Origin: Desulfobacter postgatei 2ac9
GTDB lineage: Bacteria; Desulfobacterota; Desulfobacteria; Desulfobacterales; Desulfobacteraceae
NCBI RefSeq assembly: GCF_000233695.2
Contig: NZ_CM001488.1
Location: forward strand, 2,970,279-3,034,278
Direction: 5' to 3'
Length of the DNA stretch: 64,000 nucleotides
Positions 53,925 to 64,000 of the stretch are shown piece after piece. Positions within the stretch are counted from its first letter, which is position 1. Each line of letters opens with the position of its first letter. Position numbers and translations under genes: made by a program. Below the pieces are notes generated by a model, which was not told where the DNA came from, searched no databases, and worked only from the letters and a program-made list of their open reading frames with translations.

Positions 53925-54091
53925 AATGAAACCTTTTCCAGATCAAATTCCATCATAATTCCAACCAATTGTTTAAATCCTACATTCAAAGACCAATTGA
54001 ATTTTTTTTTTGCAAAGGACGGATCACTTAAAAGAAGGTCTACCTCAGTGGGCTGGTAAAAATATGGGTCAATACTCACTCGTTTTCCCAT
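53900..54091 (-). pseudogene. C-terminal fragment of a GDP-mannose 4,6-dehydratase-type gene
   Basis: The 63-residue frame reads [20 protein letters not shown], then SFAKKKFNWSLNVGFKQLVG and MEFDLEKV, which is the conserved end of GDP-sugar 4,6-dehydratases ([21 protein letters not shown]). The first 270 or so residues are missing. It overlaps both neighbours by 16 and 25 bases, so it keeps its place in a coupled operon. A LegB-like dehydratase would fit nonulosonic acid making, but this piece cannot be active. Confidence 0.7.
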
Positions 54092-54936
54092 TTAAGTGCG
54101 GATACAATTTCATAGGTATTGTTTAAAGCCTTAAAGCCGTCATAAATTTCCAGAGTAACCGTTTTATTTTTCCATTGATAATTATTTAAAATTCTAAACA
54201 ACTTACTTTGATCCGTCAGGCCGATATTTTGATCATGTCTTCGGTCATTGTTACTGATATGAATATAATCGGAAGCTTCAAACATATCCTGAAATTCTTT
54301 CTTGAAATCAAGATGAAATGTATTGGCACTTACCATCAAATGGCCTATATCCATAAGCAAAGTGAAGTCTATTCTTTTTCGCAGCTCAGTAAAATCATGA
54401 AATGTTAAAAGCATGAACGGGGCATTATTTCCATAAACCATATAATTTGATTCAGAATAACAATTATTTTCAATATACAAATTTATGTCATGGAATTCAT
54501 TTTTAAGAATATGAAAAGCATCTATAAAATTTTCTAATGCTTTTTCCTTATCATATAAATTCGATTTACCGAATTTTCTGCCGATTTCATCAACAGGGCG
54601 ATCTATAAAAAAACCGGCATGGAATCCAAATTGTTTCCCTCCAAACAACCGGGTCATCCTGAGAGCTTTTTTCAGATGATTTAAACTTGCTTCATAAATA
54701 TCCGTGTTAAGCGAGGCTAAATTCAAGATAAAAGGATCTTTCGGCGGTGGGAAATAATTATGAACTAAAAAGTTAAGATTATAGCCTTTTTTAAGTTCAA
54801 GAAGCTCCGATTCACAGCCATCATAATATTCAGTCCCACCGGTCAATTCAATATTTCTAAACCCCTGATCAACCAGTTCTTTTACCGCCGGACCAATCAA
54901 TATTTGTTTAGAGCATGCTGAAGATATATAAATCAT
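54076..54936 (-). CDS. Sugar isomerase/endonuclease-like TIM-barrel protein
   Basis: A 286-residue protein of the xylose-isomerase-like (AP endonuclease 2) TIM-barrel family. Metal-binding positions are suggested by FGFHAGFF, LYIENNCY, LLMDIGHLM, DYIHISNNDRRHD and VTLEIYDGF, in the usual order. Its substrate is unknown; the place next to neuB and a GNAT gene suggests sugar epimerisation or isomerisation in the nonulosonic acid or surface glycan pathway. It follows the GNAT gene by six bases. Confidence 0.75.
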   Translation of the reverse strand: MIYISSACSKQILIGPAVKELVDQGFRNIELTGGTEYYDGCESELLELKKGYNLNFLVHNYFPPPKDPFILNLASLNTDIYEASLNHLKKALRMTRLFGGKQFGFHAGFFIDRPVDEIGRKFGKSNLYDKEKALENFIDAFHILKNEFHDINLYIENNCYSESNYMVYGNNAPFMLLTFHDFTELRKRIDFTLLMDIGHLMVSANTFHLDFKKEFQDMFEASDYIHISNNDRRHDQNIGLTDQSKLFRILNNYQWKNKTVTLEIYDGFKALNNTYEIVSALKWENE

Positions 54937-54942
54937 AATTCC

Positions 54943-55401
54943 CTACAATTCCACAAAAGCCAACAACTGCCCTTTTTCTTTTCCCAAAAAAGAATAATTT
55001 AATTTTCTATATAAATGAATTGCTCTTGAATTTTGAGGGTATACTTTCAATTTTATTTTTTTCGCACCTTTTTTTCTAGCCCGTTCATGGAGGAACACCA
55101 TGAACTTTTCCCCCAATCCTTTACGCCTGTAATCCGGATGAATAATAATCCCCAGACTGGGGATTTTGTATCCTTCATCCCACCCCCTGAGCATTCCGTA
55201 ACCGCAAATCTTTTTTTCCATTGTTTGGATGAAATAAAGATCCCCGCCGTTGTAATGACAAATCTCATGCGCTTTTTTTTTATTAAACGGATGGGGATGA
55301 AAATATTTATCCCAGCCGTTGCTATGAATACTTTCAAAAAATGAGGTCAGTTTATCTGTGAAAGAGGCATCAACCTGAGAATATTGGATTTTACTATGCA
55401 C
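54943..55401 (-). CDS. GNAT-family N-acetyltransferase
   Basis: A 152-residue acetyltransferase. The acetyl-CoA loop is DYRRKGLGEKFMVFLHERAR and the C-terminal signature is NSRAIHLYRKLNYSFLG. The start is a GTG whose G overlaps the neuB TAG. In the cluster it may N-acetylate an amino sugar before nonulosonic acid formation (compare PseH or LegH), which is an inference from position. Confidence 0.85.
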   Translation of the reverse strand: MHSKIQYSQVDASFTDKLTSFFESIHSNGWDKYFHPHPFNKKKAHEICHYNGGDLYFIQTMEKKICGYGMLRGWDEGYKIPSLGIIIHPDYRRKGLGEKFMVFLHERARKKGAKKIKLKVYPQNSRAIHLYRKLNYSFLGKEKGQLLAFVEL

Positions 55402-56468
55402 TATTCCGACTTCCAGGCTATTGCGTCAAGCGTTAAAACATCATCTTTTTTAATCGTCTTCACCACCTGTTTTCCGATCACCTTATCAAACCAGTTGGGC
55501 GGCAAACCCGTACCCGGTCGTTTGCAGGTTACATCCTCCGGTTTAATCATCCGGCCAGCAGATATGTCACGGGTTGCAACCAAGCTTTTTTGCATTTTTG
55601 ATTTATTTTTACGCTCACTTGGCATGATTCTCTTGATACCATCACCAAGGGCCAATTCCACATTTCGAATCGTCCTGACCATCTGACCGATCTCTTGCGG
55701 TTCAAGAGACGCATTATGATCTGGACCTTCCATACACCTGTCAAGGGTAAAATGTTTCTCAATCACACAGGCACCGGCTGCAACAGCCCAGGGACTTGCA
55801 CCAATCCCAGACGTATGATCTGAAAATCCAACGGGACAGCCAAATGCAATTTCCATTGTTTTCATTGCTCGAAGGTTAATATCCTCCAACGGGGCAGGAT
55901 ATTCAGAGGTACATTGTAGAATGATAATCTTTCCGTCAAGTCCATTTTTTTTCAGTTCATCGACAGACTCTTCCACATCTCCAAGGTTCGACATCCCCGT
56001 CGATAAAATTACCGGAATATTTTTTTTGGCCAGATAGCGAAGAAACGGGATATTTGAGGTATCCGTGGATGCAATTTTATATGCATCCACGCCGATAGTT
56101 TCAAGCAGATCAGCACTATTTTGCTCGTATGGTGTACAAAGATACAATATTCCTTCATCTTCACAATGTTTTTTTAATTGCGCCTGTTCCCGGTCCGATA
56201 ACTCAAGCTGTTTAAGCATGGAAAATTGAGAATCGTCACCAGAGGTTGTTTTAAGCTGATAATCAGCCTTTTCGCTATTCCGAGTTACAAGCGACTCTGC
56301 TTTAAAACATTGAAATTTAACGGCATCAGCACCGGCAGCCTTTGCTGATTCAATCAACTTGTGGGCAATATCGATATTCCCGTTATGATTAACCCCGGCT
56401 TCAGCAATGATAAAACACGGGTGTTTTTTTCCGATTTTAAAATCTTTAATTCTGACAAAATTATTCAT
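55401..56468 (-). CDS. neuB: NeuB-family nonulosonic acid synthase
   Basis: A 355-residue synthase that condenses phosphoenolpyruvate with an N-acylated hexosamine to give sialic, legionaminic or pseudaminic acid. The NeuB barrel has FIIAEAGVNHNGNIDIAHKL, AVKFQCFKAES, STGMSNLGDVEES and EKHFTLDR. The C-terminal SAF domain (residues 295-352) includes RDISAGRMIKPEDV and RPGTGLPPNWFDKVIGK. The exact product cannot be told apart by eye. It overlaps neuA by eight bases and the GNAT gene by one base. Confidence 0.92.
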   Translation of the reverse strand: MNNFVRIKDFKIGKKHPCFIIAEAGVNHNGNIDIAHKLIESAKAAGADAVKFQCFKAESLVTRNSEKADYQLKTTSGDDSQFSMLKQLELSDREQAQLKKHCEDEGILYLCTPYEQNSADLLETIGVDAYKIASTDTSNIPFLRYLAKKNIPVILSTGMSNLGDVEESVDELKKNGLDGKIIILQCTSEYPAPLEDINLRAMKTMEIAFGCPVGFSDHTSGIGASPWAVAAGACVIEKHFTLDRCMEGPDHNASLEPQEIGQMVRTIRNVELALGDGIKRIMPSERKNKSKMQKSLVATRDISAGRMIKPEDVTCKRPGTGLPPNWFDKVIGKQVVKTIKKDDVLTLDAIAWKSE

Positions 56469-57186
56469 TTTCTTTCAATTTCATATAGGTTTCCGCCAAT
56501 CTGAAATCCATTTCACTGTCAATATCAATACTTCTGTCTGGGGGCATTATATATGCTTCAATCACACCGGAATATAAAAGTTTTTTTTCAAGAATAGTGG
56601 ATCTCCAGGTAACCTCTACTGCTCCATTAAGCCTGTATGCCGGGGGAAGTAATTGCCGTCTCATGTAATGTTCGATTTGTATTCCAGCAACAAAGGCTTC
56701 CATCCTTCCGTCATTGAGTTTATACATCCAATAAGGGTGGTGATCTACCTCACAAACAGAACGGACCCAGTCCGGTTTTTTTTTGATCAAAATATCCAGT
56801 GCTTGGTTAATATCCTGAGCAATTCTTAATGGTGCCGTAGGCCTAAGCCACACAATTATATCCGGGCAAAAATTTTCATTGTCTTTCAACCAGGCTAACG
56901 CATGTTCATACACCGGCATATCCAGGGTATCATCTGCAGCAATATTTTCAGGCCTTAAAAAAGGGACATCAGCCCCGTATTGTTTGCCTATTTCAGAGAT
57001 TTGCCTATCATCCGTGGAAAGAATAACCCTGTCAAGACATTGCACCGACAATGCCGTTTCAATGGTCCAAGCTAAGAGAGGCTTTCCGGCAAGCATTTTG
57101 ATGTTTTTTCTTGGAACGCCTTTTGACCCGCCCCGTGCAGGTATTATCGCCAGAATTTTTTTATTACCCTTCATTATTCCTGCCAT
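56461..57186 (-). CDS. neuA: Nonulosonic acid cytidylyltransferase (NeuA-type)
   Basis: A 241-residue enzyme that activates sialic-type acids as CMP-sugars. The CTP-binding N-terminus is IIPARGGSKGVPRKNIKMLA (residues 13-32), then DDRQISEIGKQYGADVPFLR and WLRPTAPLR. The ATG at 57186 has AGGA upstream at the right distance; an ATG four codons later is also possible. It overlaps the upstream methyltransferase gene and neuB, so three genes are coupled. Confidence 0.93.
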   Translation of the reverse strand: MAGIMKGNKKILAIIPARGGSKGVPRKNIKMLAGKPLLAWTIETALSVQCLDRVILSTDDRQISEIGKQYGADVPFLRPENIAADDTLDMPVYEHALAWLKDNENFCPDIIVWLRPTAPLRIAQDINQALDILIKKKPDWVRSVCEVDHHPYWMYKLNDGRMEAFVAGIQIEHYMRRQLLPPAYRLNGAVEVTWRSTILEKKLLYSGVIEAYIMPPDRSIDIDSEMDFRLAETYMKLKENE

Positions 57187-58066
57187 TTTTTCCTGCGATA
57201 TAAATTATCGTATCTGTTTTTTGAGCCCTTTCCAATACCCGGCAGTATTCATTGCAACTTCCAAACAGCTTTTTAAACTTTAAATCTCCACCCGGTTTTC
57301 CTTTTTTCAGCCAGGCCAAGTGATTATCAAGACCATATCGCTGATAAAACATAATCTTTTTTTCATAAAAGCCCTCTGATTCAAACACGCATCTTAATCC
57401 ATTTGCAGAATAAATATAATGATGCATGGGTTGAAAATAAAAATCTTTATAGGCATCCAAATCATAAATTGATAGCAAAGGATCTTCAATATGCGGCACT
57501 TCTATGATAATGCTGCCACCTGTATTTAATAACGGCTTGCATTTCTTTAAAAAGTCGAACGGATCCCTTATATGCTCAAACACATGAAACAAACAGATAA
57601 GATCAAATTTTTCCCCATCAGGAATATCTTCCAAATATTCATATTGATCCACACTAAAACGTGAAACAAACGCCCTGTTCGTGGAATCGGGTTCAACGCA
57701 AACACACTCACACTTTTGGGAACATTTTTCAAGGAATGCGCCGGTTGAGCTTCCTATTTCAAGGATTCTTCCATCCTGTATGAAAAAATCCTCCAGCTGT
57801 TCCCACCGTTTTGAGGCATCCTTCATACTTTTTTCATGAAGTTCCAAAGGATCCGTTGTCAGAGTCACGCCGCGTTTCTTTGTATGTTCATTGTAGGCGG
57901 CATAAAAATTTTTTTCTTCCGGTTCGTTCATTATGGGATATAAAAATCCTGTCAAACAATAATTACAACGAAATACCTTTGTGTTTTGAGCAGACCAGAC
58001 CTTGTTATGTATCTGTTTGAGATTCGAAGAGTTACAGATGGGACATTCCATATTTTTATCATTCAT
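57164..58066 (-). CDS. Zinc-ribbon methyltransferase
   Basis: A 300-residue protein with an N-terminal four-cysteine ribbon (CPICNSSN at residues 5-12 and RCNYCLTGFLYP near 33) and a class I methyltransferase core (RILEIGSSTGAFLEKC near 100, DLICLFHVFEHIRDPFDF near 155). This type is frequent in surface-glycan clusters and probably methylates a sugar. It overlaps neuA. Confidence 0.85.
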   Translation of the reverse strand: MNDKNMECPICNSSNLKQIHNKVWSAQNTKVFRCNYCLTGFLYPIMNEPEEKNFYAAYNEHTKKRGVTLTTDPLELHEKSMKDASKRWEQLEDFFIQDGRILEIGSSTGAFLEKCSQKCECVCVEPDSTNRAFVSRFSVDQYEYLEDIPDGEKFDLICLFHVFEHIRDPFDFLKKCKPLLNTGGSIIIEVPHIEDPLLSIYDLDAYKDFYFQPMHHYIYSANGLRCVFESEGFYEKKIMFYQRYGLDNHLAWLKKGKPGGDLKFKKLFGSCNEYCRVLERAQKTDTIIYIAGKNGRNNEG

Positions 58067-58133
58067 AATGAAACCATATTCATTAAAATATATTCAATTA
58101 TCAAGGACCATTCAATTCGGACAGCTTATATTT

Positions 58134-59525
58134 TTATGTTTGCCGAAATCCCCTGAAGGAAGCATCCCGGCTGTAATATAAATCCTTGATTTGTGAAACC
58201 ATCAGTTTCTTTTTATTTTCAAAATAATTTTCAACAAGCATGATATTGGCATTCGCCAGTTCCGAATAAAGTTCTTTTTCAGACAATTTTGTAAAATTAA
58301 CAGCAAAAAGGTCTGCATTCAAATGCTTGTTTTCATAAAAGTCCTCAATGTCTTTAATCAGACCCTTTTCAATTGCATAATTATATAAGGGAGAACCGGG
58401 GTATGGGGTAACAGGCCGAATGGTTCTCATCTGGGCCCCATCATCATGCTTGATTAAAAAATTTACAGCAGCGGTTAACGTTTCCTTATTGTCGCCGATA
58501 TGGCCGAACAGCATATTCAGACCGGGACTGATTCCGGCAGCCAATGTGGATTCGATACCTTGGTCGATCTGTTTGATTGAGAGGGCCTTGTTCATTTTTT
58601 TCAGCACATCATCGTCATAGGCTTCAATGCCGTAATTGATAAAAACGCATCCTGCCCGTTTCATTAACGCTAGCACTTTCGGTGTTGCATAGTTGAGCCT
58701 GCCGTTGCAGTCCCATTTTATATTCAAATCGGCCTTTAAAAAAGATTCGCAGATTTCCATGGTACGTTGTCCGGATGACATGAGAAGTTCGTCTGAAAAA
58801 GCGATATAAGATATGCCGAACTCTTTTTTCAGATATTGAATCTCTTCGATAATGGCCTCGGCGCTTCGGGGACGAAATCCCTTGTCCATCCTGTAGCAGA
58901 AATTACATTTAAACGTACATCCCCGGCCGGAGAGCAGCGGCATGACAAAATCGCCGTGGGTGCAATGGGGCATTCTCAACAATCTGTAATATTCAATGGG
59001 AAAAAGCTCGTATGCCGGCCACGGGATGCTGTCAATATCCTTTATCAGTTCCCGCCTGGGGTTAACCACAACTTTCCCGCCGTTGCGGTATGCAATTCCA
59101 TTGATGCGGTCCAGGGGCTTATGGGTGGCAAAGGCATCAAAAAGTTCCAAAACCGTTTCCTCACCTTCACCGATCACGGCGACATCAGCACCGGTTTTTT
59201 CAAGAAAATATTCCGGCTCCGGGGACGGCCCGTGCCCTCCGATGATGAACTGTTCAGGTCTTTGTTTTGACTTTTCAATGGCCAGGGAAATATTGAGCAG
59301 TTTTTTATATTGATAATACCCGGCAATGATGTTGACGCCGATAATATCGAATTTGTTCCGGTCCAGATAAGCGGTCAGGTGCTCATCCGGGTAATGATGG
59401 AGATCCTGGTTATAAATTTCAACATCATAGCCGTCTTTTTTGAGGACTGCCGCAATATAGGCCAATCCCTGGGGAAACCAGTGGATATACGAATCGTTAT
59501 CATAGACAACCAATAGAATCCTCAA
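58134..59525 (-). CDS. B12-binding-domain radical SAM protein
   Basis: A 463-residue enzyme with an N-terminal cobalamin-binding fold (residues 1-150) and a radical SAM domain with the cluster motif C203, C207, C210 (RGCTFKCNFCY). The C-terminus has the family's extended helices. B12 radical SAM enzymes often methylate unreactive carbons, but many glycan-cluster members have unknown substrates. It is the first gene of the minus-strand cluster and the next one, the methyltransferase gene, begins 67 bases downstream. Confidence 0.9.
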   Translation of the reverse strand: MRILLVVYDNDSYIHWFPQGLAYIAAVLKKDGYDVEIYNQDLHHYPDEHLTAYLDRNKFDIIGVNIIAGYYQYKKLLNISLAIEKSKQRPEQFIIGGHGPSPEPEYFLEKTGADVAVIGEGEETVLELFDAFATHKPLDRINGIAYRNGGKVVVNPRRELIKDIDSIPWPAYELFPIEYYRLLRMPHCTHGDFVMPLLSGRGCTFKCNFCYRMDKGFRPRSAEAIIEEIQYLKKEFGISYIAFSDELLMSSGQRTMEICESFLKADLNIKWDCNGRLNYATPKVLALMKRAGCVFINYGIEAYDDDVLKKMNKALSIKQIDQGIESTLAAGISPGLNMLFGHIGDNKETLTAAVNFLIKHDDGAQMRTIRPVTPYPGSPLYNYAIEKGLIKDIEDFYENKHLNADLFAVNFTKLSEKELYSELANANIMLVENYFENKKKLMVSQIKDLYYSRDASFRGFRQT

Positions 59526-59675: not shown

Positions 59676-62126
59676 TTACTGGAGCAGGCTCAAGACATTC
59701 TGCGAACTGGCATTGGCCTGGGACATGGCAAATGTGCCGGCCTGGCTCAGGATCTGCATCTTTGTAAAGTTTGCCGACTCTTCGGCAAAGTCAACGTCAC
59801 GGATGCTGGATTCCGCAGCTTCAACATTTACCTTGGTTGTTGAAATATTGGCAATGGTGGAGGTCAACTGGTTCTGCACGGAACCCAGGTCGGACCGGAC
59901 CTTATCCAGGGATTTCAACGCGGCATCCGCCACTGCAATACCGATCTGGGCACCTTCCTGGGTGGTCACATCCACATCGGAAAGGCGATAGGCAGAGGCA
60001 TCGGACATAAAAGAATCCACTGTACTGTCCGAAGCTACATCATTAACCGCCAGAGTTGTACCCGATTTCAGTATGGAACCGCCGTTAATGACCATATCTT
60101 CCGTCAGTTTATTAGTGGCTGCAGTACCGGTGATTATATCATATTCAAGGGTGGTGCCCTTGGCATATGTGGTTCCGTCGGAAGCCAGGATATCATTGGT
60201 CAACACCGTACCAGCAGTGATAGTCGAATCCTTTGCAATTATCGAACCTTTGGTCAGCAGCATATCTTTATCCACAGCCACTTTTTCATCCTCACCCGTT
60301 GTCGTCGCTAATCCAAGGGACGATCCATTGGCCAGAATGGAGTTGGCTCCTATACTAGAACCAGCCTTCAAGTTTACGGAACCGCCGAATATTGCACCAG
60401 AACCTTCCAATGCGTCGGTGGCAAAGGTTGTTCCACTCTTAAGGACGGAGCCGATATCAAGGGTTGAACCGGATCCCTTTAGCGCCATATCCGCTGTGAG
60501 AGTCACATCTTGTTGAATCGTATAATTATGCCCGGTAGTGCTGCCGGCAGTCAAAATAGAACCACTTTCCAGAATAGACCCGGCCGCTAAGGTTGCCTCT
60601 CCGGTCAGGATTAAACCGGTGGTTTTAATAGCAGTGTTACCCTTGATATAGGTATTCCCCCCGCTAACAACTACATTACCTGAAGTCGCACCGGAAAGGC
60701 TTTCACTCACATCGCCCTTAAACACTGTACCCGTTTTTAAAAGAGTATCTGCACCACCTTTTAATTCCGTCCCAGCGCCCAAGCTACTTTTGATAACTGT
60801 TGCAGTATTCTGAGCTATTTCAAAATTCCCTTGAAGGGTGGTTCCTGCACCAATGATTGATCCGCTATCAAGAACTGATCCTGCTCCAATAACGTTTTCA
60901 TCATTTAACAGGCCTGTTACTTGGGCTGTGGTTGTAAAGGTGCCTTGAAGCACCGCCCCAGATGCCAAGACTGATGCGGTAAGAGAAGAACCGGATGTAA
61001 GCACCATTTCCTGGGTGGTGGAGGCCATAGCCCCTACTTTCATGAAGCCATCCTCGGTGGAAACCGCAATACCAGCCTGGGCAGAAGCATCGGTAATGGC
61101 AATCTGGCTGGTGCCTTCCTGGCGTACTTCAATCGTGCCCAAAGTCGACAGCTCTTCCGTTCCACCCATTACGGCCTGGGTAGCCGCTCCCATGGTAACT
61201 TTAATGGCCCGGTTGTCCGTAGAATTGAGAGTAAGTACTCCGTCTTGATCCACGGAAGCCGTAACCCCGTGCTCACTGGTCTTGTTGTTGATCGCCGACA
61301 CCAGGGCACCGTCGGAATCATTTTCCTTCACATCCAAGGCACCAATGGTAACGCCGTTGATGGAAAAACTGCTGTCCGTTGTACCGGCGGTGATATTATC
61401 ATCCGTAGAGGAAGAAACCGATGCCGTGGCTGAGATACCCAGCACATCACTGAGTTTATTAATGGCATCGGCCACAGCGCCCACGCCGTGCTCCGCACTG
61501 TTATCATAGGCCAGCTCAATGGAATTCAGTGAATAGGTCTTGTCCTGCAGATTACTGTAAACATTGAGTTGGGTCGTCCCTTCACCGGCAAAGGTTAGAT
61601 CAGAGGTAGTGATATGACCGATCTTATTTGCTTCCGTTGACTGGATGGAAATGTCCACGGTCTCACCGGCATAGGCCCCGATCTGAAATTTCTTGTCGGT
61701 AAAATTACCGGAAAGAAGTTTCTGGTTGTTGAATGAGGTGGTTTTGGCAATGTTGTCCAGCTCTTCCCTGAGCTTTGTAATATCCGCCTGGATGGCCTTG
61801 CGGGAGTCCGTAGTCTGTCCGTCCTGGGCCGCCTGGATGGATTTGGTTTTAATGGTGTTGACGATGTTGATGGATTCTTCCAGAGCCGCGTCTGCTGTCT
61901 GAACAATCGAAATCGCATCGTTACCATTCCGGATGGCCTGTCCCAGGCCCAGGGACTGAGACTTGAGAGAGTCGGCAATGGACATGCCGGAAGCGTCATC
62001 CGCTGCTTTGTTGATCCGAAGGCCGGAAGACAGTTTTTCAAGTGCTGACGACAGGTTGTTATCATTCTTGACCAAATTTTTGTGCGCGTTTAACGCTGCA
62101 ACGTTGGTGTTGATTCTTAATGCCAT
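59676..62126 (-). CDS. fliC: Flagellin with a long repetitive central insertion
   Basis: An 816-residue flagellin, far longer than the common 270-500. Residues 1-165 are the conserved N-terminal D0/D1 part (MALRINTNVAALNAHKNLVK) and about 715-816 the C-terminal part (SSIRDVDFAEESANFTKMQI ending NVLSLLQ). Residues 170-350 include flagellin insertion motifs. Residues about 370-700 hold six-residue repeats (GSILESGSILTAGS, DIGSVLKSGTTF, LKAGSSIGANSILANGSSLG) predicted to form a beta-solenoid. A sigma-28-type promoter and AAGGAGG lie upstream. Nonulosonic acid genes lie just behind it, so it is probably glycosylated. Confidence 0.95.
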   Translation of the reverse strand: MALRINTNVAALNAHKNLVKNDNNLSSALEKLSSGLRINKAADDASGMSIADSLKSQSLGLGQAIRNGNDAISIVQTADAALEESINIVNTIKTKSIQAAQDGQTTDSRKAIQADITKLREELDNIAKTTSFNNQKLLSGNFTDKKFQIGAYAGETVDISIQSTEANKIGHITTSDLTFAGEGTTQLNVYSNLQDKTYSLNSIELAYDNSAEHGVGAVADAINKLSDVLGISATASVSSSTDDNITAGTTDSSFSINGVTIGALDVKENDSDGALVSAINNKTSEHGVTASVDQDGVLTLNSTDNRAIKVTMGAATQAVMGGTEELSTLGTIEVRQEGTSQIAITDASAQAGIAVSTEDGFMKVGAMASTTQEMVLTSGSSLTASVLASGAVLQGTFTTTAQVTGLLNDENVIGAGSVLDSGSIIGAGTTLQGNFEIAQNTATVIKSSLGAGTELKGGADTLLKTGTVFKGDVSESLSGATSGNVVVSGGNTYIKGNTAIKTTGLILTGEATLAAGSILESGSILTAGSTTGHNYTIQQDVTLTADMALKGSGSTLDIGSVLKSGTTFATDALEGSGAIFGGSVNLKAGSSIGANSILANGSSLGLATTTGEDEKVAVDKDMLLTKGSIIAKDSTITAGTVLTNDILASDGTTYAKGTTLEYDIITGTAATNKLTEDMVINGGSILKSGTTLAVNDVASDSTVDSFMSDASAYRLSDVDVTTQEGAQIGIAVADAALKSLDKVRSDLGSVQNQLTSTIANISTTKVNVEAAESSIRDVDFAEESANFTKMQILSQAGTFAMSQANASSQNVLSLLQ
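60027..61019 (-). repeat. Hexapeptide-repeat region of flagellin
   Basis: Codons for residues about 370-700 encode a degenerate six-residue pattern G-S/T-x-[ILVF]-x-x, repeated in blocks, for example GSTLDI-GSVLKS-GTT. The pattern resembles the [STAV]-x-[LIV] hexapeptides of left-handed beta helices. DNA repeats are weak, so the region has diverged. Confidence 0.8.
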
Positions 62127-62227
62127 AATTTATTCCTCCTTGAGAGTTAATGAATCAGGGATTCCGTTCCCTTTTTTTTTATATTTCCACCGTACCGTAC
62201 CTGGTTTACTATGGAATCTGAAATAGC

Positions 62228-62254
62228 TTATCGACGGCTGGAAAAATAACTTAA
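62228..62254 (-). promoter_or_regulatory. Sigma-28 promoter of fliC
   Basis: On the minus strand TTAAGTTA, 11 bases, then GTCGATAA matches the FliA consensus (TAAAGTTT-N11-GCCGATAA) with few changes. It lies about 100 bases before the flagellin ATG. Confidence 0.75.
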
Positions 62255-62262
62255 AAAAAAAT

Positions 62263-62289
62263 TATGTTTTTTATGCGATTACCCGATAA
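62263..62289 (+). promoter_or_regulatory. Sigma-28-like promoter of fliD
   Basis: TATGTTTT, 11 bases, then CCCGATAA fits the FliA spacing with a good -10 and a weak -35. It is divergent from the fliC promoter nine bases away and lies 54 bases before fliD. Confidence 0.55.
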
Positions 62290-62343
62290 GAGTATCAATA
62301 TAACAGCAAGTAAAATGCACATTTAATTTTATGGAGAAGCACC

Positions 62344-64000
62344 ATGGCAACAGGATCGATTACATCATTGGGAATAGGGTCCGGCCTTGACCTTCAGGAT
62401 ATTATTGATCAGCTCAAGGGGGTGGATGAAGCCGTTATCACCGCCAAGGAGGCGGAACAGACCGAGCTCCAGACCCAGGTGGACGCCTATAATACCGTTA
62501 ATGCCAAACTTTTTTCCATCAAATCGGATGCCCTGAACCTATCCCTGGCATCCAATTTTTTGGGCAACCGTGTTTCCATATCGGATGAAGATATCCTCTC
62601 TGCTACAGTGGGGGATGGGTATGAAGCCTCTTCCTACAGCCTTGAAGTCACCCAGAAAGCCCAGAAAAATTCCTGGGCGTCCACTGCTGCGGCCGGCAAA
62701 ACAGATGCCCTGTTCAACGAACCCGAATCCGGGATATCGGATATAGATACCACCGCGGTCACAATTTTGGGGGCTGGTGTCGCCTTGACAGAGGAGGTGA
62801 CATTAAGTGCCGACACGTTGGTTGGCGCAGGAGCCACAATTGCTTCCGGATCGACACTTTCAGCAGGAACTGTTTTAACGACTGATATTATTAATAATTC
62901 CGGTACGACTATTGTAGCAGGAACGACCCTGTCAGTGGATACTGTTATACAGGGTGATACTCTGTTACAAGAGGATATGACCATTAGGTCCGGCTCTATA
63001 CTGGAAGCTGATTCGATGTCCCCACCCCTTTCCATTTATTATGGTGTCGACGGCGATCAGGAGCAGATCGACATCAGCCTGGAAGCAGGCATGACGTTTG
63101 AAGAAATCGTCGATGCCATCAATAACTCTGCCGACAACACCGATACAGATGGAAACCAGCTGGTCACGGCCGCCATTGCCAGTAATGACAACGGCGAGTA
63201 CTATATCCGGCTTTCAGCCACTTCAGGAGAAAACACGGAAGATTCGCAGATCAGCGTTTCCGGATTTGACTGGGTGGCGGCGGATACCACTGTGGGCATC
63301 ACCCAGGGAGACAGCACCATGTACTTAACCGTTGCTCCCGGCACCACCTACCAGGGGATGGCGAAACTTATCAACGAGGCTGAAAACAACCCCGGCATCA
63401 CCGCAGCCATTATCAATAACGGAGACACTGACAACCCGTATCAGCTGACCCTTACCGCCGACGAAACCGGCGAGGACGCCAGAATCACCCTGAGTAATTT
63501 TGATGAATTAACGGAAGTGAACGGGGCCGGAGGGGAATCTTTGAATGCCGAATTTGCCGTGGACGGCATTTCTTATTCCCGCCAATCCAACAGCGGGATT
63601 GACGACGTCATTGACGGCGTCACATTTGAGCTGAAAAGTGTCGGGGAAACAACACTGGACATTGAAGTCAGTCACGATACCGTTAAAGAAGATCTTTTAT
63701 CTATGATCGAGGGGTTCAATGACCTTGTCTCCTATATTACCGGCACCGGCGCAGACTCTTCGAACACGGAAAGCGAAACCGAGGACGATGCGGACAATCC
63801 CTTTGAAAGCTCAAGCAGCGCCAGGCGGATTGTTGCTCAGCTCAAATCCCTTTTAACCACAAACATTGATCTGGATAGTGCTTACACGAGCCTGATCGAC
63901 CTGGGGCTTGACATCGCCAAGGACGGCACGATCAGCATTGACGAAGATACCCTTGACGAAGCCATCGCCAACGATCCAGATGCGCTGAGAATGCTGTTTT
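62344..64000 (+). CDS. fliD: Flagellar cap protein FliD (3' end outside window)
   Basis: The first 552 codons of the hook-associated protein 2, which caps the filament and helps flagellin fold at the tip. MATGSITSLGIGSGLDLQDI at the N-terminus and the FliD domains (SYSLEVTQKAQKNSW, ISVSGFDWVAADTT, TVAPGTTYQGMAKLINEAEN, EFAVDGISYSRQSNSGIDDV) are clear. Residues about 138-225 are an insertion of six-residue repeats (GAGATIASGSTLSAGTVL) of the same type as in flagellin. A GGAG ribosome binding site precedes the ATG. The frame is open to base 64000, so the stop is not seen. Confidence 0.93.
   Translation, partial: MATGSITSLGIGSGLDLQDIIDQLKGVDEAVITAKEAEQTELQTQVDAYNTVNAKLFSIKSDALNLSLASNFLGNRVSISDEDILSATVGDGYEASSYSLEVTQKAQKNSWASTAAAGKTDALFNEPESGISDIDTTAVTILGAGVALTEEVTLSADTLVGAGATIASGSTLSAGTVLTTDIINNSGTTIVAGTTLSVDTVIQGDTLLQEDMTIRSGSILEADSMSPPLSIYYGVDGDQEQIDISLEAGMTFEEIVDAINNSADNTDTDGNQLVTAAIASNDNGEYYIRLSATSGENTEDSQISVSGFDWVAADTTVGITQGDSTMYLTVAPGTTYQGMAKLINEAENNPGITAAIINNGDTDNPYQLTLTADETGEDARITLSNFDELTEVNGAGGESLNAEFAVDGISYSRQSNSGIDDVIDGVTFELKSVGETTLDIEVSHDTVKEDLLSMIEGFNDLVSYITGTGADSSNTESETEDDADNPFESSSSARRIVAQLKSLLTTNIDLDSAYTSLIDLGLDIAKDGTISIDEDTLDEAIANDPDALRMLF
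62755..63019 (+). repeat. Hexapeptide-repeat insertion in FliD
   Basis: Residues about 138-225 have a six-residue period (AGATIA-SGSTLS-AGTVLT, SGTTIV-AGTTLS-VDTVIQ). One part, STLSAGTVLTTDII, parallels STITAGTVLTNDIL in flagellin. The two 30-residue segments are about 60 percent identical when aligned by eye. Confidence 0.8.

Follow-up and report, generated by a model that had tools for sequence, protein, structure and literature searches.

A hexapeptide-repeat module shared by flagellin and the flagellar cap protein FliD of Desulfobacter postgatei 2ac9, probably grafted into the cap head

The genome of Desulfobacter postgatei 2ac9 (one contig of 3,974,658 bases, G000 in our survey) carries a divergent pair of genes for flagellin and the flagellar cap protein FliD. 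The pair lies at the end of the 64,000-nucleotide stretch analysed here, which we call the window (NCBI RefSeq assembly GCF_000233695.2, contig NZ_CM001488.1, positions 2,970,279 to 3,034,278 of the forward strand). In window coordinates, the flagellin gene occupies 59676..62126 on the minus strand and encodes 816 residues, with Flagellin_N (1.5e-45) and Flagellin_C (5.9e-29) both exceeding their Pfam cut-offs. On the plus strand, fliD (62344..64000) encodes a protein of 647 residues, in the window part of which the terminal domains FliD_N (1.3e-19) and FliD_C (5.5e-27) also exceed the cut-offs. The gene ends 287 bases beyond the window, the complete open reading frame being L003:4623-6566. 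Both proteins contain a block of six-residue repeats, and the origin of the block in the cap protein is the subject of this analysis.

Outside its core, the flagellin has an IN motif and about 336 hexad residues. The hexad-repeat outer block covers residues about 369-704 (60015..61022, minus strand), and a permissive parse recognizes 52 hexads in it. The hexad insert of FliD comprises 84 residues (142-225; 62767..63018, plus strand), parsed as 14 consecutive hexads with zero breaks, and is located in the head region between FliD_N and FliD_C, flanked by TTAVT and LSIYYG. Both blocks display periodicities of 6, 12 and 18, for glycine and aspartate residues (z 2.1 to 7.2) as well as for hydrophobic residues (z 3.3 to 5.8, except for 1.8 at period 12 in FliD); peaks of neither kind appear in three control stretches. 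The hexad blocks that the sequence-only reading had described in both genes are confirmed at these lengths. Two flagellin segments matter for what follows. The last module, residues 614-688 (60063..60287, minus strand), is homologous to the FliD insert, and an IN-type block at residues 242-334 (61125..61403, minus strand; Pfam Flagellin_IN 8.2e-12) matches, and is of the same kind as, a block inside the FliD of five relatives.

A blastp comparison of full flagellin with full FliD returns one match at E 1e-3, between FliD 150-222 and flagellin 614-688 (47% identity over 76 residues; E 3e-9 to 4e-12, varying with the set searched). The reported identity of 18 of 30 positions is exact for FliD 170-199, with the flagellin span corrected from 635-664 to 634-663. 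Searching the own genome with the flagellin block yields at E<=1 only the block itself and FliD (E 7e-8). One could still imagine two independent low-complexity hexapeptide solenoids that came to resemble each other, as the hexapeptide rule imposes similar composition and the FliD insert has numerous weak cross-matches to other flagellin modules. This reading can be confronted with phase-preserving shuffles, in which residues are permuted among hexads within each of the six hexad positions (1000 shuffles). Against the whole own flagellin, the FliD insert scores 150 with a shuffle mean of 107, and the score is reached in 1/1000 shuffles; against the repeat block of the own flagellin, the observed score is reached in 0/1000. 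The same count of 0/1000 is found for a Desulfamplus flagellin (score 221, shuffle mean 123) and for that of G008 (score 185, shuffle mean 105). Low complexity is ruled out by these shuffles as the explanation of the similarity, and we consider convergence most improbable. Since the shuffles almost never reach the observed scores, we conclude that the FliD insert is homologous to the flagellin modules, beyond the common hexad pattern. The proposal of a shared module stands in this form, composition alone being insufficient.

The repeats invite comparison with left-handed beta helices (LbH), in which tandem hexads have an aliphatic residue at position 1 and S, T, A or V at position 5. Three hexads (18 residues) form one coil, and position 5 faces the core in known proteins of this fold. 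In FliD 142-225, position 1 is aliphatic in 13 of 14 hexads and position 5 is S or T in nine of 14, with A or V in three more. The period-18 peaks of both blocks, missing from the controls, fit a three-hexad coil, which is consistent with the fold but no proof of it. Pfam Hexapep (PF00132) scores 18.6 bits on the flagellin and 13.3 bits on FliD, both under the cut-off of 27. On the own genome, the Hexapep profile finds nine frames at E<=1, including FliC and FliD, both below cut-off; four of the seven others are confirmed as Hexapep proteins. Among 19 group flagellins (alignment A2), Hexapep matches occur in 17 at E<=0.1 (best 7e-18), and matches to the eIF2B LbH domain in 15 (best 7.7e-15).

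Searches against PDB sequences point in the same direction. The FliD insert has 31 weak matches (best E 0.0046), the module profile 27 (best E 0.014) and the flagellin block eight (best E 0.022); by name, at least 27 of the 31, 24 of the 27 and six of the eight are proteins that we take to have the LbH fold. When the modules are compared by profile with four Hexapep proteins from the own genome, the probability is 69%. AlphaFold2 models place one short strand on each hexad in both proteins. For FliD 148-227, the block-mean predicted local distance difference test (pLDDT) score is 85-98, against 61 for 138-147, in a model made from a shorter query that omits the cap head around the insert; for the flagellin, pLDDT is 73-86 at 621-690 and 31-57 in 351-600. 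Structure comparison with Foldseek speaks against this fold: no PDB match of the FliD insert falls under E 0.001, the best being a cupin at E 0.43, and LbH is not named among the best 50 of 236 matches. For the flagellin model, the best 50 matches include flagellins and flagellar complexes, which leaves the hexad block unaddressed; with viral models, Foldseek produced no match at E 0.001.

Sequence and models together suggest that the FliD insert and the flagellin block are probably LbH-like hexapeptide solenoids. With the LbH proteins of PF00132 (LpxA, LpxD, GlmU, gamma-carbonic anhydrase) they have in common the aliphatic first and S/T/A/V fifth hexad positions, the period of 18 and, in the models, one short strand per hexad; they differ in scoring under the curated cut-off and in having no significant Foldseek match. 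As no significant Foldseek match to the PDB was obtained, we withhold family membership. The left-handed helix of the sequence-only reading is hence upheld by sequence searches and strand-per-hexad models, and not by Pfam at its cut-off or by Foldseek.

The module is distributed very unevenly between the two proteins. We surveyed 48 flagellins and 61 distinct FliDs with both ends, partial FliDs and duplicates being removed before counting. The survey profiles were built from the FliD inserts themselves and 11 of the surveyed flagellin modules, so that matches of the source sequences arise by construction (E 1.1e-30 for the FliD of D. postgatei 2ac9), while absences do not. The hexad module is present in 42 of the 48 flagellins; among the six lacking it are the Pantoea and Rhabdochromatium flagellins, two of the three from Desulfamplus and two short proteins. 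Among FliDs, it is present in D. postgatei 2ac9 only (1/61; next best E 0.018), and an extra IN-type block is present in five of the 61 (next best 1.3e-4). A low-complexity-masked search of 48 FliD entries, with D. postgatei 2ac9 entered twice, gave flagellin matches at 1e-6 for D. postgatei 2ac9 and three IN-bearing FliDs only. Neither co-occurrence nor co-variation of the two insertions was seen in the profile survey, with 42/48 flagellins against 1/61 FliDs, and we set that idea aside. A flagellin of 2011 residues in G044 (L059:1020-7052) has seven module-length hexad matches.

Related FliDs show the site without the insert. The FliD of G065, sister to that of D. postgatei 2ac9 in the tree (93/97; 73% identical), has no insert and reads DHDTTQVTTQSETLSIFYG at the site, so that DTTQVTTQSETLSIFYG stands opposite DTTAVT-(insert)-LSIYYG. 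The G065 contig (L173, 4056 bases) breaks within fliD; as it starts eight residues before the insert site, the left flank is scarcely read. The same contig also carries a second, different FliD end. Both FliDs of G058 likewise have no hexad insert. A tree of 20 of the 61 FliDs with the partial G065 protein requires two changes under parsimony, the hexad module and the IN block each being gained once. Because the sister FliD has no insert, the comparison supports a gain of the hexad copy by FliD in the D. postgatei 2ac9 lineage. An ancestral FliD feature lost elsewhere could be defended by pointing to Flagellin_IN, another outer module that occurs in both proteins according to Pfam. With the insert in one of 61 FliDs, absent from the sister and both G058 proteins and not seen at the same site in any distant FliD, this would require many losses, and we give it hardly any credence.

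By protein identity, the nearest kin of the FliD insert is residues 453-533 of a Desulfamplus magnetovallimortis flagellin (57% over 83 residues, E 4e-22), compared with 47% over 76 residues for the own flagellin; a second alignment gives 56% and 50%, respectively. A tree of 121 modules was built after 126 of 246 domain matches had been dropped for their shortness. In it, the insert joins residues ~430-535 of five Desulfamplus-type (g2) flagellins, at 82 and 90 in the Shimodaira-Hasegawa-like approximate likelihood ratio test, and apart from the C-terminal module of the own flagellin. The donor was thus probably a Desulfamplus-like middle module, a choice favoured but not proven by these comparisons. 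Several observations weigh against it: no starred fork of the module tree holds the insert, the assignment draws on some 80 columns, and DNA identity of the insert to nine candidate modules is 0.46-0.53, which does not favour Desulfamplus. DNA identities in this range indicate that the insert is no recent copy of any compared module, and that the transfer is old or its donor unsampled.

The sequence-only reading had suggested exchange between the two adjacent genes, which would mean that the divergent flagellin and fliD of D. postgatei 2ac9 recombined directly or underwent gene conversion. The genes are indeed adjacent, and the shuffles show the homology of the insert to the own flagellin to be real. 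Third-position guanine-plus-cytosine content is 0.414 in the insert and 0.420 in the own flagellin repeat, against 0.594 in the rest of FliD, and DNA identity to the own flagellin module (0.532) is on par with that to the Desulfamplus module (0.527). Moreover, the five IN blocks in relatives' FliDs, described below, cluster with flagellins from the same group of species. In contrast, the protein identities stated above and the tree, with modest support, place the insert with another class of modules. Because its nearest protein kin are Desulfamplus-type middle modules, simple conversion from the neighbouring flagellin is disfavoured, by protein identity and tree though not by DNA identity, and we regard it as unlikely.

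A second flagellin-type block is found in the same part of the cap protein. FliDs of five relatives (G010, G019, G025, G030 and G034) carry, in place of the hexad module, an IN-type block of ~90 residues about ten residues downstream of the hexad site, with 54-69% identity to the best flagellin matches. In the G034 FliD (L057), the one of the five that was scored, Pfam Flagellin_IN reaches 40.1 bits against a cut-off of 22.7, and the best stretch, 170-221, lies within the insert. A tree of 46 IN blocks unites the five FliD blocks in a single clade (100/98) next to flagellin blocks from that species group (fork 93/85); counting against a firm reading, this tree is midpoint-rooted and its bootstrap not settled. 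Since many of these flagellins have IN blocks, whereas the FliD copies occupy one corner of the tree, movement from flagellin to FliD is likely, being favoured but not proven. Taken with the hexad insert, parsimony on these sequences indicates two separate flagellin-type gains in one stretch of the FliD head, which we regard as the main result.

These observations can be best explained, in our judgement with fair probability, by the grafting of a flagellin module into a permissive FliD head, with a Desulfamplus-like donor probable and a second, IN-type graft nearby. Beyond the conserved core, flagellins of this family would have a long hexapeptide solenoid of ~80-residue modules. One such module would have been copied into the FliD head in the D. 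postgatei 2ac9 lineage, replacing about five residues; the probable donor, a Desulfamplus-like middle module, may have been acquired horizontally, or may have come from a flagellin copy that later disappeared or diverged. In a clade nearby, an IN-type flagellin block would have entered the same FliD stretch about ten residues away and then been inherited vertically. What tells against this account is that the hexad insert in FliD was seen in one genome only. The order-wide search with the FliD insert, matching in 40 of 389 genomes, was limited to 13 scored candidates in each genome, so that cases may be missed; the matches listed besides the D. postgatei 2ac9 FliD are all in frames of 438-2028 residues, not individually annotated.

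As to function, our guess is that the grafts give the cap a filament-like surface, so that phages, surfaces or glycosylation enzymes would encounter a similar surface on cap and filament. The main rival is selective neutrality of the insert, with a head that accepts additions and no functional gain. The presence of the hexad insert in one species only would agree with neutrality, while the 14 hexads kept unbroken and the two separate flagellin-type grafts in the same FliD stretch argue otherwise; we consider neutrality a serious but lesser possibility. Of the 24 S/T residues of the FliD insert, nine are at hexad position 5. As this is the core-facing position of known LbH proteins, S/T richness was set aside as evidence for glycans.

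Beside the flagellin gene, window positions 54076-59525 encode a NeuB-type nonulosonate synthase with a Pfam score above cut-off and, below cut-offs, PseF-like cytidylyltransferase, GNAT, methyltransferase-like and B12 radical SAM-like proteins. This gene group is likely a flagellar glycan (nonulosonic acid) set, and its position next to flagellin makes flagellar glycosylation plausible as a prediction. The intergenic gap between flagellin and fliD measures 217 bp (62127..62343). Adjacent promoters for the two genes, as had been proposed, were not recovered: the gap gave one weak sigma-28-like site (62228-62254, minus strand, two mismatches), the only such site in it.

Other axial proteins display blocks in common as well. 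FlgL of D. postgatei 2ac9 (L003:15480-17447, residues ~185-280 and ~427-550) has a ~90-residue block in common with the head of Desulfamplus-type FliDs, those of L102 (L102:10001-12121; z 15.5), L103 and L106, at a best E of 1e-11. This block is present in two copies in each protein and has no Pfam match. A different block of ~85 residues is common to FlgE (from 408), FlgK (from 858) and FlgL (from 294) of L003 (z 5.8-7.8; 0 or 1 of 500 shuffles). Trees were made for the flagellin-FliD cases only. Together, the flagellin/FliD grafts, the FlgL/FliD block and the FlgE/FlgK/FlgL block hint at a common pool of outer modules among axial proteins of these sulfate reducers, with a cap dressed like the filament and possibly one surface along the appendage, a tentative idea to which we give somewhat less than even weight. 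If modules have indeed moved repeatedly from filament to cap, outer domains would be portable across axial proteins, and such movement into the cap head would amount to a natural experiment on the role of the FliD head. The modules also define a type of flagellin whose probable hexapeptide solenoid lends itself to direct imaging.

A literature search covering titles and abstract openings among the entries listed, with subscription papers mostly uncovered, found no report of a hexapeptide module common to flagellin and FliD. Fields et al. (2024), by its entry in the reference list of PMC12445082, reportedly concerns the diversity of flagellin outer domains between bacteria. The Pfam family Flagellin_IN (PF07196) is the closest parallel for a module present in both flagellin and FliD, and five relatives' FliDs have an extra flagellin-type copy of it; the hexad module is of a different kind and was seen in FliD of D. 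postgatei 2ac9 only. Additional domains in FliD are known from Campylobacter jejuni, where an extra D4 domain is inserted within the D1 helix bundle; the accessible part of that report describes such insertions in other FliDs, flagellins and hook proteins as not unusual, and a link to heparin binding is postulated (PMC7316729). An additional inserted domain is thus common to both FliDs, but the D. postgatei insert is located in the head and is homologous to flagellin, whereas D4 lies in the D1 bundle and no flagellin homology is mentioned for it in the part of the source available. In Pseudomonas, the FliD head (D2/D3) can be exchanged for that of Salmonella, as far as the available part of that paper shows (PMC8533109). 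Such a head tolerates foreign domains, which would explain how grafts survive, with the difference that these are laboratory FliD-FliD chimeras, whereas D. postgatei and its relatives appear to carry natural grafts of flagellin type. Given the exchangeable heads of Pseudomonas and the additional domain of the C. jejuni FliD, a head graft would be tolerated, and by analogy we infer that the head of FliD is permissive for grafts of surface modules of the filament. In our best reading, the hexad graft would be a natural, flagellin-derived form of the known insertion of domains into FliD.

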